DNA of 64,000 nt, from NCBI GenBank assembly GCA_017545245.1, contig JAFWPB010000026.1:1-64000 (forward strand), in the 5' to 3' direction. The stretch comes from Clostridiales bacterium (GTDB lineage Bacteria > Bacillota > Clostridia > Saccharofermentanales > Saccharofermentanaceae). A program made the translations under genes and the position numbers. Each line of letters starts with the position of its first letter. Positions within the stretch are counted from its first letter, which is position 1. Positions 18,274 through 52,568 of the stretch are shown piece after piece. The notes beneath the pieces were generated by a model. The model was given only the letters and a program-made list of their open reading frames with translations. It was not told where the DNA came from and searched no databases.

Positions 18274-18521
18274 TCCAACCTAAGGCTATGTTTATATTTT
18301 TCCTCCCGATTTTTTCCAACCTAAGGTCACACATTCAAATCTCCACAAAAGAAAATCCAACCTAGGGTTGAATAAATAGGAGAAAGCACGATCATTTCCT
18401 TCACGTTCTGTCTGAAATCTTCCGTTTGGGGAGAATGCTTTCAAGTGTGGCAGAGAAAAATCCAACCTTGGGTTGGAAACGCAAAAGCGTTACTCTAGCG
18501 AAACAACGTTAGGTTGGAAAA
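18274..18521. repeat. Five copies of a TCCAACCT(A/T)(A/G)GG motif
   Basis: TCCAACCTAAGG occurs near 18274 and 18315, TCCAACCTAGGG near 18356, TCCAACCTTGGG near 18461, and an inverted copy (CGTTAGGTTGGA) near 18507-18518. Copies 3 and 4 extend into palindromes (CAACCTAGGGTTG; TCCAACCTTGGGTTGGA). Spacing is irregular. They fill the 485-bp gap between the EEP gene and the lipoprotein. The core resembles the inner arm of the metY palindrome. Confidence 0.65.
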
Positions 18522-31943: not shown

Positions 31944-33041
31944 TCAGTATTCCGTCACTTCGCACTTTTTCACTTTATGCCAGTTCAGGAGGATGACCGG
32001 CACGATGACCAGTACTTCTGTGACCAGGCACGCGATCACGGCAAGTGGTGAAATACGGTAGAAACGCTGTCCCTTCTCCCAAAGAAGCTCATTGGCAGCC
32101 AGGATGACGCCGGCATTTACAAGCACACCGAGAATGAACCCTGCCGCATCCATCAGGAGTGCTTCGCAAGCTACCTTACGGAAGATCTGCCCGCTTGTAA
32201 ACCCCATCGCCTTATAGATGGAAAACTCATATTTTCTCTTGTCAAAAGCAGCTGTGAATGCAGCATTGATCGTGACGAGAAGGACGATCGCTACGAGCAC
32301 GACCACCGCACCCATGACGATATACATGAAACTGAACTCATCGGAAACCTCTTCCAGGTTCGTCGAGTTCGTCCAGATCGAGACGAGCGGATACTTGGCA
32401 GATAAATCTCTACAGAGACGCTCAATTTCATCGTGCAGGTTCTGGTCCACTACGCCATCTTTACTCATCACGAGAAAAGCACCGGTATTCAGATCAGTAT
32501 CCACCACATAAAGTTTCATTCCCTTATCTTCCACAAAAGAACTGAGCGTCAGTTTTTCTCCTTTTCCGAGTTTGTCGCCGATCTTAAGGCCACGGTTATT
32601 CGCAAGAAGTTCTGTCATTACTACCTCTTTGTCATGAATGACCAGATCTTTTGGGAGATATCCTGTCCGGTCGCGGAAAAGAATAAAGTCCTCTTCGCTC
32701 TGAAACCATATATTCTGCGTTGTGCAGTTAAACCCGATAAGACTGTCAAAAGAAGTATTCTCGATGGAAACATAGATCACTTCGGAAAGATTCTCAGGAA
32801 GGATCGAAGAGAGCGAATCACGAAGTGACCTGTACTGCTCGATCGCTTCGTTGCTGGATCCCCGTGGACGGGCGATCATGAAAGTATTCGGCTGCTCCAG
32901 TTCGATACGGAAGACTTCGCTCGGATTATCGATGTACATGCCGCCAAGGAAAACGACCGTGACAAAAGACATCATGAGTATCAGTACGAAACAGCGAAGC
33001 TTGTTTTTCGTTATATACGTGAGTGCAGAAAACGGCTTCAT
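31944..33041 (-). CDS. FtsX-like ABC transporter permease
   Basis: A 365-residue permease with one FtsX module: an N-terminal membrane helix (LRCFVLILMMSFVTVVFLGG, about 13-32), an outer domain of about 190 residues, and three helices around 240-360, with KYEFSIYKAMGFTSGQIFRK at the cytoplasmic loop after the first. Its start overlaps the ATPase stop by 4 bases (ATGA). It pairs with the other permease (33731-34870) around the shared ATPase. Substrate unknown; the adjacent LiaSR-like pair suggests a cell-envelope stress or antimicrobial-peptide function. Confidence 0.87.
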   Translation of the reverse strand: MKPFSALTYITKNKLRCFVLILMMSFVTVVFLGGMYIDNPSEVFRIELEQPNTFMIARPRGSSNEAIEQYRSLRDSLSSILPENLSEVIYVSIENTSFDSLIGFNCTTQNIWFQSEEDFILFRDRTGYLPKDLVIHDKEVVMTELLANNRGLKIGDKLGKGEKLTLSSFVEDKGMKLYVVDTDLNTGAFLVMSKDGVVDQNLHDEIERLCRDLSAKYPLVSIWTNSTNLEEVSDEFSFMYIVMGAVVVLVAIVLLVTINAAFTAAFDKRKYEFSIYKAMGFTSGQIFRKVACEALLMDAAGFILGVLVNAGVILAANELLWEKGQRFYRISPLAVIACLVTEVLVIVPVILLNWHKVKKCEVTEY

Positions 33042-33718
33042 ACCCTTTCTCCCTTCTTCTCCACTTCCGAGATACTGCCATCCCAGATCTTCACGATCAT
33101 GTCCGCATCCTGTACGATCGTCGTATCATGTGTAATGACAAACACCAATCTGTCTTTTGCATATTCTTTCAGTTTTCCCATAACCAGGAATGCGTTTTCG
33201 TGATCTAGCGATGCCGTCGGCTCATCTGCAAAAAGCACTTTCGGGTCGTTCATCATGGCTCTGGCGATTGCGACACGCTGGCGCTGGCCACCGGAAAGTT
33301 TTCCCGGTTTATGTGTCAGCTCACTTTTCTTCAGACCGATTTCCTGAAGAAGGTTCTCTGCCTTGGCACGAGCAGCTTTCGGCGGAATCGTAGCTGCCAC
33401 CGTCGCATTCTCGATCGCGGTCATATAATTAATGAGGTAGTGTCTTTGAAAGACGAAACCGAATTCTGTTCTTCTCAATCTCTGTTTCTCTGATTCCGAA
33501 ATCCCGGAAAGAGATTTCCCGTTATACACGACCTGACCGCTGGTCAGCTTTTTCAGCGTGGACAACACATACATCAGTGTGGATTTTCCGGAACCGGATG
33601 GGCCGATGATTCCAACAAGGCCGGTATCCGGAAAAGTGATGTTCATGCTTTTCATCGCATACACTTTCTCTTCTTTATCCATGTCATAGATCATGGTCGC
33701 ATCTTTTAATGTAAACAT
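33038..33718 (-). CDS. ABC transporter ATP-binding protein (MacB/LolD-like)
   Basis: A 226-residue ATPase. Walker A GPSGSGKST (about 39-47), the signature LSGGQRQRVAIARAM (about 139-153), Walker B VLFADEPTASLDHE, and the switch His in VITHDTT are all intact. AAGGAGACG precedes the ATG. It lies between two FtsX-like permease genes and overlaps the second, so the operon encodes a heterodimeric exporter of the BceAB/MacB kind. Compared with the ATPase at 2.6 kb it is a separate paralogue. Confidence 0.92.
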   Translation of the reverse strand: MFTLKDATMIYDMDKEEKVYAMKSMNITFPDTGLVGIIGPSGSGKSTLMYVLSTLKKLTSGQVVYNGKSLSGISESEKQRLRRTEFGFVFQRHYLINYMTAIENATVAATIPPKAARAKAENLLQEIGLKKSELTHKPGKLSGGQRQRVAIARAMMNDPKVLFADEPTASLDHENAFLVMGKLKEYAKDRLVFVITHDTTIVQDADMIVKIWDGSISEVEKKGERV

Positions 33719-33730
33719 ATACTCGTCTCC

Positions 33731-34870
33731 TTACTCGATCGCATCGATCGTCTGAATCTTTTTCATACCATGGAACAGCGGAATCTGTATGATCGCCAGC
33801 ATGCATCCGATAACTACCATGATCAAGGGGACCGCTTTCGGTCTCCAATACCGGACCGAGATACCGATTGGATTATTTACCGCTTTTTCCATGAACAATA
33901 CACCCAGCCAGGAAACCACGCTACCAAGAAGCACCGCTGCGCCAATGCTGATCAGCAGTTCTTTTAGCGCCATAATATAGATCTCACCTGTACCAAACCC
34001 AATCGAGTGTTCCAGGCACCATTCATTATGTCTGTCCATGATGTGGAGCGACATGACCACCACAACACAAATCAGAAGAAGACTTCCGGCTACACCGACA
34101 AAAATTGTTCTGACTGTATTCATCGAACCCATCGAATCGTTATAGTTTTTTTCTGCCTTCGCCAAATCATAATAATATGTACATTCGTATCCAAGTTTTT
34201 CAATATCCGGCTTGAAATCATGCGCCGCATCTTTTGAAGTTAAAAGAAGCATACACACATTGTTCTCTCCGGGATAAGCAATACCAAACACCGGATAACA
34301 GCTGGAAGAAACCGTTCCGACGATTTTATATTTTGCTCCCATGCCTTTCATCAAAGCACTGTCATCGGGCTGATTTGCACGGACTTTTTCATCTACAACG
34401 ATCTCACCCGGCTCTTCCGGCATACGGCCGGTCACGAGCTTTGCATTCAGATCTTCCAGATAATACTCACACTCTTCTTTCTTGCCGAAAAGGTACGCGG
34501 AGACCGAAGATTCACCGACCAGAGAATGGATTGTCACATACTGGTATCCGTACACCAGGACTTTCTTGACACCATCGATCGTTTCGAGCTTTCCGGTTGC
34601 CTCATACATAGTGTTCCATGCTGCATCGAGGAATTCCTCATCACTATCAAAATCTTCGGACGTGAATCCTAATCCGATAGATAAATCCCGCTGATGCTGA
34701 AACGGAACCTCCCACATCTGACGGAATGGTTCATCCATACAGCCGATCAAATAATCCAGCATATACATCATCACCATGAACATCGTAATACTGATGATCA
34801 ATGCCGATGTACGTCCTTTATTATTCCGGATATACGGCAGTGGAGATAATTTCATTTTCTTCGCACGCAT
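33731..34870 (-). CDS. FtsX-like ABC transporter permease (first gene of operon)
   Basis: A 379-residue permease with one FtsX module: an N-terminal helix (about 20-42) containing ALIISITMFMVMMYMLDYLI, an outer domain of about 200 residues, and three C-terminal helices ending in a short cytoplasmic tail. GLEHSIGFGTG-type loop (HSIGFGTGEIYIMALKELL) follows the second helix. It is 12 bp before the ATPase gene. Upstream, between it and the response regulator terminator, lie three GATATGAC repeats at a 24-bp period that are likely regulator sites. Confidence 0.87.
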   Translation of the reverse strand: MRAKKMKLSPLPYIRNNKGRTSALIISITMFMVMMYMLDYLIGCMDEPFRQMWEVPFQHQRDLSIGLGFTSEDFDSDEEFLDAAWNTMYEATGKLETIDGVKKVLVYGYQYVTIHSLVGESSVSAYLFGKKEECEYYLEDLNAKLVTGRMPEEPGEIVVDEKVRANQPDDSALMKGMGAKYKIVGTVSSSCYPVFGIAYPGENNVCMLLLTSKDAAHDFKPDIEKLGYECTYYYDLAKAEKNYNDSMGSMNTVRTIFVGVAGSLLLICVVVVMSLHIMDRHNEWCLEHSIGFGTGEIYIMALKELLISIGAAVLLGSVVSWLGVLFMEKAVNNPIGISVRYWRPKAVPLIMVVIGCMLAIIQIPLFHGMKKIQTIDAIE

Positions 34871-34917
34871 CCAAATACACGCTCCTTCGTTTCACTTGCC
34901 ATAACTTTACTAAACTT

Positions 34918-34973
34918 GTCATATCGGCAAAAGTTACTCAGGTCATATCTTTCACTATGACCGGCGTCATATC
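34918..34973. promoter_or_regulatory. Three GATATGAC direct repeats at exact 24-bp period
   Basis: On the minus strand GATATGAC occurs at 34966-34973, 34942-34949 and 34918-34925, each 24 bp apart and so on nearly the same face of the helix. The first is also part of the palindrome ATGAC-CGGC-GTCAT (34957-34970). They lie 50-100 bp upstream of the exporter operon and after the terminator of the two-component operon. Confidence 0.75.
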
Positions 34974-34989
34974 GTGATCCAAAAGCGCA

Positions 34990-35031
34990 AAAAGAGGCGT
35001 TCCCCATGTGACCGTAGTCACGGGAACGCCT
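34990..35031 (-). terminator. Terminator of the two-component operon
   Basis: AGGCGTTCCC pairs perfectly with GGGAACGCCT; on the minus strand CTCTTTTTGC follows. Confidence 0.85.
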
Positions 35032-35057: not shown

Positions 35058-35783
35058 TCAGAACTTGAATTCCTGCAATTTCAACACAAGACGCGTGCGG
35101 TCATGCTCGTCCATTTTATCGTAGATATTCGAAACATAGTTCTTCACAGTCCCTTCGCTGATAAAGAGGATCGACGCGATCTGCGCATTCGTACAGCCTT
35201 CGCAGATCAGCCGGCAAATCTCGATCTCACGTTCGGTGATACCGGCATCTTTCAATTCCTGCACATTTTTCTTTGCGGCTTCTGAAGAAGCGTTCTTCTC
35301 TTTTGCAGCAGAAGCGCTTACCCCTTCGGCACTTCCCGAAGCTGTTCCACTTTCCGGACTGACCCCGGAAGCGAGCATGGCATTTAACTTCTGCATAACT
35401 TTCTGATCCAGCACGCTCTGCCCCTTGACCGCCTGTGCAACCGCGTTCAGGATCGCATCTTTTCCCGAATCTTTCAGAAGATATCCGGTCGCACCGCCGG
35501 CAATGGCATTGGCAATATTCTTTTCATCATAAAAAGTGGTAAGCACGATGATCTTTACCTGAGGAAAATCTGCATGTACTTTCGGAATCAGCTCGATTCC
35601 GCCCATACCTGGCATATTCAGATCGACCAGCATCAGGTCCGGCACCTCTTTTTGAAGGCTCTCCAATGCTTCCATGCCATTTCCGGCTTTTCCGCAGACC
35701 TCATAATCTCCCGACATCGTCAGAATGATCTCCAGACTCTCCAGAAGTAAAGGTTCATCATCAACTAACAGTATCTTTGCCAT
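35058..35783 (-). CDS. NarL/LuxR family response regulator
   Basis: A 241-residue regulator starting at ATG 35783 (MAKILLVDDEP), 7 bases after GGAGG. The receiver domain has the acidic pair DDE, the phosphoacceptor Asp in LMLVDLNMPGMGG (about 52) and the conserved Thr/Lys in VLTTFYDEKN. The C-terminal HTH reads ITEREIEICRLICEGCTNAQ and then SEGTVKNYVSNIYDKM. A low-complexity Ser/Ala/Gly linker of about 40 residues (around 122-162) separates the domains, much longer than usual. Partner of the adjacent histidine kinase; the exporter operon next door is its likely target. Confidence 0.9.
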   Translation of the reverse strand: MAKILLVDDEPLLLESLEIILTMSGDYEVCGKAGNGMEALESLQKEVPDLMLVDLNMPGMGGIELIPKVHADFPQVKIIVLTTFYDEKNIANAIAGGATGYLLKDSGKDAILNAVAQAVKGQSVLDQKVMQKLNAMLASGVSPESGTASGSAEGVSASAAKEKNASSEAAKKNVQELKDAGITEREIEICRLICEGCTNAQIASILFISEGTVKNYVSNIYDKMDEHDRTRLVLKLQEFKF

Positions 35784-35785
35784 AT

Positions 35786-36982
35786 TCACCCCTCCAGTGG
35801 TAAGGAAAGACTAACCACAAAACCATCTTCACTCTCGATCACACAGGAACCGCCGCACGTTTCCGCATAGTCACGCATCTTCCGCAGGCCATACCCCTGG
35901 TTCATCTTACTTTTCTTCTCTTCCAGTGAGATCTTACCCCAGCCGTTTCCATTATCCTGTACTTTTAACCGCACATTCTTCTCATCATACACAAAAGTGA
36001 CCACGAAGATTTTTGCCTCTCCGTGCTTCACTCCGTTTGTCAAAAGTTCTGAAAGCGAGCTGCTCAGAAATGAGGCCACATCGATCGGGATCCGGTCCTC
36101 GCTGTCGATCTGCGCGAAATTGTGATAGACCTTCACATCCGTATCCATCATGAATTCTTTTGTCATTGTATCAAGCGATTTCATATAGTCCGAAAGCATG
36201 ATCTTGTCATCCTCCGCATCCAGCGTACGGACTACGCTTCGGACAGACGTAATCGCCTCATGCACCCTGCTGTTGGCCACTTCGATCTTCTCAATCGCCC
36301 GTTCCTGATCGTTCGGCACCAGCATGGACGCAGCATCCAGCGTGACTGTCGCCGCAGAAAGAGTATGTCCCACATAGTTATGGATATCCCGGGAGATCCG
36401 TTCTCTCTCTTCCAGTCTGGCATTCCGCTCGTTGAGCTTCTGTGATTTAGCGATTTCTTCACGAAGGCTTCTCTGCTCCATCGCTTCCACAGCTGCAGAA
36501 GTCAGTGCCCGTTCCAGCTTCTGATCCGTCGTTTTCATTCTTCGCATAAGCAAAAGCAAGACTTCCAAAATAAGATAGACCGATATCAATAGGATCCCTG
36601 AAAGAATCGTCACCGAAAGACTTGGTTTCTTCATCAGAACATAGAAGATCATGGCAAATACACACATTCCCAAGCTTGCCGCCCGGCATAAATTCTTCTG
36701 TTCGAAAAGCACTCCCGCTATGGGCAAAAGGCCAATGGCGCCGATATACCAGTACGGAAGAAGAATCACGGCCGCAAAAGAAAACATGATTAAAACTACC
36801 TTAGAAACCAGTAAAACTTTGTCTTCCATAAAAAAGGAAAGGTTCAAAAACAGCATCGCCAATGCAAAATATACACCACCGAGGAAAAAGCCGCTATGAA
36901 TGAACAGGAGGACGCTCTGGGCAAGTATCCCCAACATCGCCCCATGCCACAATATCTGTTTTTCGACGGAATCTATACTCAA
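35786..36982 (-). CDS. Sensor histidine kinase, HisKA_3 (LiaS/DesK-like)
   Basis: About 398 residues. The N-terminal third has around five membrane helices with very short loops, so it probably senses within or near the membrane. The dimerisation domain shows RISRDIHNYVGHTLSAA (about 194-210) with the phosphoacceptor His, and the ATPase domain has ELLTNGVKHGEAKI (N box) and VQDNGNGWGKI. The start appears to be TTG 36982, 9 bases after AAGGGAG; ATG 36937 is the alternative. It ends 2 bp before the response regulator start, sharing GGAGGGG as its ribosome site. Confidence 0.88.
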   Translation of the reverse strand: MSIDSVEKQILWHGAMLGILAQSVLLFIHSGFFLGGVYFALAMLFLNLSFFMEDKVLLVSKVVLIMFSFAAVILLPYWYIGAIGLLPIAGVLFEQKNLCRAASLGMCVFAMIFYVLMKKPSLSVTILSGILLISVYLILEVLLLLMRRMKTTDQKLERALTSAAVEAMEQRSLREEIAKSQKLNERNARLEERERISRDIHNYVGHTLSAATVTLDAASMLVPNDQERAIEKIEVANSRVHEAITSVRSVVRTLDAEDDKIMLSDYMKSLDTMTKEFMMDTDVKVYHNFAQIDSEDRIPIDVASFLSSSLSELLTNGVKHGEAKIFVVTFVYDEKNVRLKVQDNGNGWGKISLEEKKSKMNQGYGLRKMRDYAETCGGSCVIESEDGFVVSLSLPLEG

Positions 36983-37065: not shown

Positions 37066-38181
37066 TCAGATATAGATATGCACATATTCCTTCTTGCCGG
37101 TGGCGACGGTGTCGTCGTCAACTTCATGTTCGATCAGGATCTGTTCCTGTGTCAGCATAAAGAAACGGATCCATTCAGAAGAACCTACTTCTCCAAGCTC
37201 GTCTGCCCAGGTAATATCTACGTGATATGTGCCTTCCGGAACTTTTACGAGATTCCAGGCATGTCCGATCCCTCTATATATTCCACTCACTGTCTTGCAA
37301 TAAAGGTTGGCCCTCTGACAAAGGTATTGCATCGCAGCAGCATAGCCTGCACAAACCGATTTTCCGCCCATTATGCCTGCCCAGGGTGCCGCCTGAACAG
37401 ATGCATATCCGTCATAGTCATAGTCCTCATTATTTGAAATCTGTTCTGCCAGATAATAATACTTCTCATAGGCGGTCATATCATCCGTCAGGCCGGACAA
37501 GATCTCATCCACTTTCTTATAGAAGGCATCCATACCAGCTTTCACATCATCAATATCGTGGCTTGGATCCTGATCTTCCCATTTGCAGAAGTATTCCAAC
37601 CGGATACCACTCAAATCTCCGTTATCATCAGAAACTTCAACAAGATTATAGTAATTCATGTAGTCAAGATGCATCCTGTCAATGACACCCGCACAAAATA
37701 GAATGTCATCCATATAGTCATAGCCAAGTTCTTTTCGGTCATAATAATGCGGTTCAAACTTAGCGATCTTGTCACCTAGATCATCGTAGATCTTTCTCTG
37801 TTGCTCGGTCATCTCCGGTAATTCCAGTTCCTCGTAAGGATAACAGGTCAGATCCCGATTCGGGTCAATGGTTTCGGTCGTCGGCTCCGGTTCCGGTTCA
37901 GTAGTCGGTTCTTCTGTTGTCGTGGTTACTTCAGTAGTAGTTGCTTCTGTTGTGGTTGTCGCTTCCGTCGTGGTTGTCGCTTCCGTCGTGGTTGTCGCTT
38001 CCGTCGTTGTCTCTGTAGTTTCTTCCGCTGTAGCGGGTGTAGTAGCAGCGGCCGACGTCGTTTCACTTACTTTAGCCGTCTCTTCTTTCTTCGCGCAGGA
38101 GGCCATTACTGAAACCATCATGGCTACTGACAAAACCAGACTTACTGTTTTCGTTCCGAGGTTATTCTTCTTTCTCAACAT
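37066..38181 (-). CDS. Transglutaminase-like lipoprotein with Thr-rich linker
   Basis: A 371-residue exported lipoprotein. The signal peptide ends VMASCAKK (Cys about 29). A linker of about 80 residues consists of Thr, Glu and Ala repeats, then a globular domain. The transglutaminase-like triad is visible: Cys in GGKSVCAGYAAAMQYLC (about 282), His in GIYRGIGHAWNLVKV (about 313) and Asp in YHVDITWADE (about 328). Bacterial members are usually peptidases or cell-wall enzymes rather than cross-linkers. The linker DNA holds three exact copies of an 18-bp repeat. It lies just downstream of the peptidase E-like gene. Confidence 0.82.
   Translation of the reverse strand: MLRKKNNLGTKTVSLVLSVAMMVSVMASCAKKEETAKVSETTSAAATTPATAEETTETTTEATTTTEATTTTEATTTTEATTTEVTTTTEEPTTEPEPEPTTETIDPNRDLTCYPYEELELPEMTEQQRKIYDDLGDKIAKFEPHYYDRKELGYDYMDDILFCAGVIDRMHLDYMNYYNLVEVSDDNGDLSGIRLEYFCKWEDQDPSHDIDDVKAGMDAFYKKVDEILSGLTDDMTAYEKYYYLAEQISNNEDYDYDGYASVQAAPWAGIMGGKSVCAGYAAAMQYLCQRANLYCKTVSGIYRGIGHAWNLVKVPEGTYHVDITWADELGEVGSSEWIRFFMLTQEQILIEHEVDDDTVATGKKEYVHIYI
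37952..38005. repeat. 18-bp tandem repeat x3 within the lipoprotein linker
   Basis: GTGGTTGTCGCTTCCGTC is repeated exactly three times (37952, 37970, 37988), with degenerate copies on both sides. It encodes the Thr-Thr-Thr-Glu-Ala-Thr unit of the linker in frame, so slippage would change linker length without a frameshift. Confidence 0.9.
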
Positions 38182-38229: not shown

Positions 38230-38973
38230 TTATAATCTGATCGAATCGCCATCCTGGCAGATCTTCTCGATTGTTCTGTCCTTGATGCGATAGGCTTCAC
38301 CATAAAGTATCTCACCAGATCCGTCATTTACAATATAACTTCCGTCATTTAAGGCGATAAATTCGTGTCCCACACTGTCATCAAACGTTATATCGTCGAT
38401 CAGACGTTTTCCGTCAAGATATTCATTCCGAAGCGACTGGAAATGCGGATAGATCTGGACTTTCGTTAATCCGAGGCCGGATATCCATCGCTGAAAGTCC
38501 GGATCGATTGATTCGCCCGGCAATTCCGGTCCGGCATAAACAGTCTCGGCACAATTCATCGAACCCGCACTCCACGCGAGAACTAATCCTTCAAAATCAG
38601 AGAGTTTCTCACGAAGTCTGATCTTTTTGAAAAAAACATTCTGCGTAGGCACATGTCCGCCGGTCAGGATGATTACGTCAGTTTCATCGATCCGCTCCGC
38701 TTCCTGCTCGTTACGGTCATCGCACATCACGACACGGGAACAAGTCAGACCACTCATTGGAAGAGCCCGTCGGAAACAAGAAAAGACATCGTCATTCTTT
38801 TCGTGATCATCCGGTGATGCGCAGAGCATCAGGACTCTGGACTCCGGCTTCCAATACTCGCGTATCCGGTTCAAAAGACCATTTGCTTCTGCCAGAACAG
38901 AAGGATGCCGTTTCCCCTCCACCTTGATGCAGCCACCAAGCCAGCTCGTTAAAAATACTGTTTTCTCCGCCAT
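38230..38973 (-). CDS. Peptidase E-like protein (S51 / class I amidotransferase-like)
   Basis: A 247-residue protein of the peptidase S51 fold. The nucleophile elbow AWSAGSMNC (about 134-142) carries the Ser; IILTGGHVPTQN (about 100-111) and DSGDGSYIV-like end segments match the family. Peptidase E cleaves Asp-X dipeptides; this protein is more divergent than the enterobacterial enzyme, so the substrate is uncertain. GGGAGAAG precedes the ATG. The lipoprotein gene follows 48 bp later on the same strand. Confidence 0.72.
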   Translation of the reverse strand: MAEKTVFLTSWLGGCIKVEGKRHPSVLAEANGLLNRIREYWKPESRVLMLCASPDDHEKNDDVFSCFRRALPMSGLTCSRVVMCDDRNEQEAERIDETDVIILTGGHVPTQNVFFKKIRLREKLSDFEGLVLAWSAGSMNCAETVYAGPELPGESIDPDFQRWISGLGLTKVQIYPHFQSLRNEYLDGKRLIDDITFDDSVGHEFIALNDGSYIVNDGSGEILYGEAYRIKDRTIEKICQDGDSIRL

Positions 38974-52506: not shown

Positions 52507-52522
52507 CAGACCACCTCATTTC

Positions 52523-52568
52523 TGACATATGTCATTTATGGTATAGCACCATTTCTGACATATGTCAA
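52523..52568 (-). promoter_or_regulatory. DUF134-NifX promoter with two TGACATATGTCA palindromes
   Basis: Minus strand: TTGACA (52563-52568), 17-bp spacer, TATACC (52540-52545). The 12-bp palindrome TGACATATGTCA occurs at 52556-52567, covering the -35 box, and at 52523-52534, just after the transcription start; both are part of a longer repeat (TTTCTGACATATGTCA) and lie 33 bp apart, about three helical turns. Confidence 0.85.

Follow-up and report, generated by a model that had tools for sequence, protein, structure and literature searches.

In Bacillus subtilis, a rho-independent terminator separates the genes of the two-component pair LnrJK from the promoter of the ABC exporter that the pair regulates, and the exporter operon, lnrLMN, is reported to be the sole LnrK target (PMC7472640). 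In corynebacteria, the intramembrane-sensing pair ChrSA activates the heme exporter HrtBA and also autoregulates (PMC9491836). For the B. subtilis response regulator LiaR, the sequence ATAcGACtcccgGTCtTAT and the operator ATAcGAC...GTCtTAT have been described (PMC7191749).

The locus analyzed here lies in a 64-kb stretch of DNA, all of which was analyzed and which we call the window, from a member of the Clostridiales. A literature search by combined terms returned no prior description of this module. LnrJK/LnrLMN and ChrSA/HrtBA are its closest working models. A sequence-only reading of the window had pointed to three short repeats at an exact 24-bp period between a “LiaSR-like” pair and an ABC exporter and had proposed a self-contained envelope-stress module.

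Genes of the locus and their relation to described systems

The neighbors of the repeats are as that reading had described them: a HisKA_3 kinase and a NarL/LuxR-type regulator upstream and an FtsX/ATPase/FtsX set downstream, all on the minus strand. Read along that strand, the kinase and regulator genes come first, followed by a terminator-like hairpin, the repeats, and the genes for a permease, the ATPase, and a second permease. The features are as follows.

35786..36982, minus strand: sensor histidine kinase with HisKA_3 and HATPase_c domains (Pfam, hydropathy, orthologues)
35058..35789, minus strand: NarL/LuxR-type response regulator with Response_reg and GerE domains (Pfam, PDB sequence search, orthologues)
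35006..35023, strand not assigned: extra operator-like palindrome, the highest-scoring site of the window, within the apex of the terminator-like hairpin listed next
34989..35031, minus strand: intrinsic-terminator-like hairpin and T-run after the regulator gene, with perfect 10-nt arms
34955..34972, minus strand: site A, the distal palindrome ATATGACGCCGGTCATAG, which includes most of the GATATGAC copy at 34966; third-highest-scoring site of the 64-kb window
34931..34948, minus strand: site B, the proximal palindrome ATATGACCTGAGTAACTT, which includes most of the GATATGAC copy at 34942; second-highest-scoring site of the window
34918..34925, minus strand: third GATATGAC copy, an isolated, species-specific half-site in the spacer between the predicted -35 and -10 elements
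34904..34909, minus strand: predicted -10 element TAAAGT, with TAnnnT at the same offset in related promoters
33731..34870, minus strand: exporter permease 1, FtsX/MacB-type (AlphaFold model, Foldseek; FtsX Pfam score just below cutoff)
33038..33718, minus strand: exporter ATPase (ABC_tran)
31944..33041, minus strand: exporter permease 2, FtsX (Pfam FtsX, 45.8 bits; cutoff, 25.5)

Based on Pfam matches above cutoff to Response_reg (1.4e-26) and GerE (5e-17), the regulator is of the NarL/LuxR type, and its closest solved relatives in a PDB sequence search are VraR and LiaR, with ChrA also among the matches. The kinase has several hydrophobic stretches or membrane helices within residues 10 to 150, that is, roughly its first 150 residues, as judged by hydropathy. 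This differs from LiaS, which has two membrane helices and a HAMP domain; Pfam finds no HAMP domain in the kinase, and the Strep_LiaS model scores 49 against a cutoff of 450. LiaF (PF09922) had no match in the window's own genome, and the control for this search was positive in 5 of 14 genomes, B. subtilis among them. The likeness to LiaFSR and VraSR thus extends to the VraR/LiaR-type regulator but not to the kinase architecture or to LiaF, and the target here is an exporter. Because LiaF is absent and the kinase differs, the module is not a LiaFSR system.

Hydropathy and the AlphaFold model (mean pLDDT, 77.5) show the four-helix arrangement of MacB/FtsX-type permeases in permease 1: one membrane helix at the N terminus, three toward the C terminus, and a large external domain separating the first from the second. 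Foldseek searches with this model returned MacB, the S. pneumoniae 5xu1 transporter, LolCDE, and HrtBA at low identity and moderate TM-scores (E value of 3.1e-10 against 5gko). The exporter ATPase scores nearest to the LolD and MacB models, under their cutoffs; with 185.3 bits against the 307.75 required by the LolD equivalog model, it does not qualify as part of a LolCDE system. Both proteins place the exporter near the MacB/LolCDE/FtsX superfamily, and no score against the listed NCBIfam models reaches its cutoff; therefore, no named exporter subfamily fits.

The terminator at 34989 to 35031 and the site-bearing promoter, both lying between pair and exporter, recall the LnrJK/LnrLMN layout. 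LnrLMN is an ABC-2 type exporter, whereas permease 2 here is FtsX and the fold of permease 1 matches MacB, LolCDE, and HrtBA rather than ABC-2 permeases; the order is permease-ATPase-permease, and there is a probable second, unlinked target, a lipoprotein gene. ChrSA/HrtBA is approached through the Foldseek placement of permease 1 near HrtBA and through ChrA among the PDB matches of the regulator. In contrast to that system, this exporter has two distinct permeases plus an ATPase as a protein of its own, and general autoregulation was not seen.

Repeats, putative operators, and promoter geometry

Minus-strand copies of GATATGAC at 34918 to 34925, 34942 to 34949, and 34966 to 34973 have start-to-start distances of 24 and 24 bp, and the coordinates thus confirm the exact period over three copies. 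The claim that such spacing is unlikely by chance was borne out: when the window was shuffled 60 times by dinucleotides, no equally spaced triple of a nonsimple 8-mer (periods up to 60) appeared. Two further equally spaced 8-mer triples lie in the window, one at 37953 that is a coding repeat and one at 18274. Repeats recorded elsewhere in the window are TCCAACCT(A) in three copies at 41-bp spacing (18274 to 18364), an 18-bp tandem repeat of 3.6 copies that encodes the Thr/Glu-rich linker of a transglutaminase-like protein (37943 to 38007), and a degenerate 16-bp tandem repeat of 3.2 copies (52516 to 52567). The further claim, that the copies lie nearly on one helix face, was wrong: 24/10.5 is 2.29 turns, and adjacent copies about 2.3 turns apart do not face one side of the helix.

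Read on the minus strand, two of the GATATGAC copies are the left arms of imperfect palindromes of the ATATGAC-N4-GTCATAT type, sites A and B. The half-site is the same as that of the LiaR box ATAnGAC...GTCnTAT but for one base, while the center spans 4 bp here and 5 bp in the B. subtilis sequence. To rank sites, the entire 64-kb window was scanned with a matrix derived from related promoters, the window's own two sites excluded; the palindrome at 35006 to 35023 has its center 51 bp upstream of site A. A weak operator-like site (11.4 bits) lies at 38333 to 38350, upstream of a transglutaminase-like gene (37066 to 38181). The third GATATGAC copy matches 7 of 7 arm bases, whereas the same position in 34 other exporter promoters (G044 and G088 left out) matches at most 5 of 7.

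Downstream of site B, the promoter follows a strict rule. A script located TAnnnT beginning exactly 30 bp past the proximal center in 35 of 36 exporter promoters; for the 36th (G044), it returned an empty slice, and TATTAT is seen at that offset by eye in the alignment. Nearly all members of the window's genus have TAAAGT as the -10 hexamer, and in the other genus TATTAT, TATCAT, and TACTAT predominate. The -35 region of the exporter promoter is poor in sequence. With the hexamer taken as -12 to -7, site B would be centered at about -42 and site A at about -66. Class II activators bind a site that overlaps the -35 element at about -41.5, and the predicted position of site B would fit this arrangement. 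Among the exporter promoters, the distance from the proximal site to the -10 element is fixed while the distance between the paired sites varies.

Distribution of the site pair and its probable targets

Permease 1 orthologues (E value below 1e-29) occur in 37 of 115 family genomes; five further genomes with weak matches only (7e-5 or worse) were dropped. A profile search of the order returned the same 37 genomes among 188, in 2 of 30 genera, and named records of the window's genus are mostly assemblies of Clostridia from the rumen or other gut. Because all genomes compared come from one family and two genera, the counts that follow are not independent.

The palindrome pair precedes the exporter operon in 35 of the 37 genomes; one of the others (G086) has a single site, and in G088 the region is cut by a contig end. 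Center spacing is 24 bp in 26 pairs, 34 bp in 5, 25 bp in 2, and 26 and 23 bp in 1 each. In five genomes (G037, G044, G061, G065, and G066), some 1.5 kb separates the pair from the permease downstream, and in G066 this interval holds an S41 peptidase gene (L105:2575-4071), the first gene of the exporter operon. The sequence-only reading had proposed a search for the 24-bp periodic motif before orthologous exporters and held that variable spacing, or absence where the gene pair is conserved, would count against it. The site pair withstands that comparison, but the third copy and the exact period do not, the former being absent in relatives and the spacing being 23 to 26 or 34 bp. We therefore rejected three direct repeats as the functional unit, because only the palindromes are conserved; strict 24-bp periodicity was also rejected, as spacing varies among exporter promoters.

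A strict 24-bp-pair pattern matched in 30 of the 115 genomes, at the exporter in 26 and only away from it in 4 (G014, G023, G027, and G059); in exporter genomes it found a few additional places, the G094 lipoprotein gene among them, and the reversed control gave 6 matches in 5 genomes. In the window's own genome, a looser single-site scan yielded 33+30 matches, compared with 20+22 when the pattern was reversed; this is near noise and was therefore not used as a regulon list.

The kinase and regulator have orthologues in 35 and 34 of the 115 genomes, respectively, all within the 37 that carry the exporter, and none was found in the other 78 at the thresholds used. Two genomes (G108, 81% complete, and G035, 70% complete) have the exporter with its sites and neither protein among those found. 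In 16 genomes, kinase and exporter are on different contigs or 17 kb or more apart, and 15 of these keep the site pair at the exporter; the sole exception is G088, in which the region upstream of the exporter is cut by a contig end and the kinase also borders a contig end. A break in the assembly may account for the separation in G044 and G088. The peptide FISEGTVKNY, which we take to be the recognition helix, is identical in the window's regulator and in two distant orthologues from genomes whose permeases are only ∼35 to 37% identical to those of the window. Judging from sequence, the regulator likely binds the palindromes, given its co-occurrence with them, its VraR/LiaR kinship, the LiaR-like half-site, and the invariant helix.

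Scans upstream of 33 kinase genes (G069 and G086 not included) found strong sites at two loci (L103 and L109, in G045 and G048), both single operators, weaker sites at three (G061, G066, and G094), and none at 28. Autoregulation of the pair as a general rule was rejected because so few kinase genes have a strong site of their own; the operators in G045 and G048 suggest lineage-specific autoregulation. Separately, single ATATGACTWWAGTCACAT-like palindromes occur at L133, L128, L129, and L130 (G093, G107, G109, and G111), before or beside an ABC-2-like exporter operon or adjoining two-component genes, and are possibly a third target or sites of another regulator.

Single-site matches within the genus led to the second target, a gene for a small lipoprotein with a signal peptide and lipobox (both judged by eye) and ∼110 mature residues. 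It is present in 13 of the 115 genomes, all 13 among the exporter carriers, and a profile search added one weak partial match in a genome without the exporter (G090). A Pfam search with three of the 13 members gave nothing over cutoff. Two palindromes precede all 13 genes (score threshold of 6, versus 8 for exporters), 22 bp apart in 8, 23 bp in 4, and 24 bp in 1, and TAnnnT again lies 30 bp from the proximal center in 13/13. An unbiased search for pairs at 22/23 bp matched in 9 of 115 genomes, every place being a lipoprotein promoter, and the reversed pattern had no match in the 115. In the window's genome, the gene is on a different contig from the exporter (G000:C51:20306-20707). With an unlinked gene under the same promoter, “self-contained” is too narrow a description of the module.

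Regulatory model, RNA folding, and alternatives

We consider it highly probable that the repeats are parts of two tandem operators through which the adjacent NarL/LuxR-type regulator activates an exporter and lipoprotein regulon. The sites, their pairing, their fixed distance from the predicted -10 element, and their co-occurrence with the kinase and regulator are established by comparing the genomes. The multi-helix membrane kinase would sense a signal, possibly envelope stress, and the phosphorylated regulator encoded just upstream would then bind the exporter promoter as two dimers, one near -66 and one near -42. The latter would overlap the poor -35 region and recruit RNA polymerase (class II activation), and the permease-ATPase-permease exporter would be made; the same regulator would drive one further unit in the window's genome, the lipoprotein gene. 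The earlier proposal of regulator sites between pair and exporter is thus most likely right, with a palindrome pair in place of three direct repeats as its unit.

That some other conserved DNA-binding protein occupies the palindromes is unlikely: the separation of kinase and exporter in 16 genomes and the two genomes with sites but no detected pair (G108 and G035) speak for it, but those two are just 81% and 70% complete, kinase and regulator accompany the exporter almost without exception in the 115 genomes, and a LiaR-box-like half-site accompanies a VraR/LiaR-like regulator. Repression of the exporter by the regulator, with the half-site between -35 and -10 blocking polymerase, would explain the location of the third copy in the promoter spacer. 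We regard it as very unlikely, since that half-site is absent from 34 related promoters while the conserved proximal site at about -42 accompanies a poor -35 region, the usual geometry of activators. Least credible is an origin of the 24-bp repeat by chance or mutational tandem duplication, an idea for which the species specificity of the third copy could be cited; against it, both genera keep the pair, at a varying spacing but an unchanging distance from the -10 element, and no shuffle reproduced the triple.

RNA folding complicates the picture. The hairpin after the regulator gene has a folded energy of -24.8 kcal/mol and is followed by TTTTT. Sites A and B can themselves fold into one hairpin (-26 to -28 kcal/mol) before a T-run at 13 of the 23 loci of the same genus and also in G069, and within the genus 57 of 64 cells of their central four bases show complementarity (shuffle mean, 46.8; 0/2,000), a significance inflated by relatedness among the 16 distinct promoters. 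These observations speak for a view in which the sole function of the palindromes is to end upstream transcription as an RNA hairpin. Against it, A and B pair poorly in the window, which has a separate strong terminator upstream; complementarity does not exceed that of shuffles in the other genus (27/48) or in lipoprotein promoters (29/52); GTAAC and TATTAC variants break the stem and keep the motif; and an exact 30-bp distance to the -10 element serves no purpose in termination. We therefore find a purely RNA role highly improbable. Like the window, G094 lacks the A-B complementarity and has a separate strong terminator upstream; G099 and G114, however, have the A-B hairpin plus a candidate hairpin upstream, so the either-or rule is not strict. 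Since the site pair forms a terminator-like hairpin in sister species, a dual DNA/RNA role is suggested there, and part of its conservation may serve RNA.

More tentatively, and with the balance leaning against it, the operator pair could be bifunctional, acting in DNA for activation and in sister-species RNA as an insulating terminator, in a regulon that forms an undescribed export/immunity module of rumen Clostridia. If so, the A-B terminator would shield the exporter from upstream read-through in sister species, and complementarity would be lost where a separate terminator is present, as in the window's species and G094.

The operator-based activation that we favor is a known type of bacterial switch, seen here with unusually clear promoter rules and an unexpected second target. 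It gives an uncharacterized two-component system of uncultured, mostly rumen Clostridia a precisely predicted two-target regulon, with an operator, a spacing rule, and a predicted -10 element. The promoters may also form a natural series in which two regulator dimers would tolerate separations of 22 to 34 bp at a constant activator-to-polymerase distance. Finally, the shared promoter ties an uncharacterized family of lipoproteins to a MacB-type exporter, offering a lead on the substrate of the exporter.
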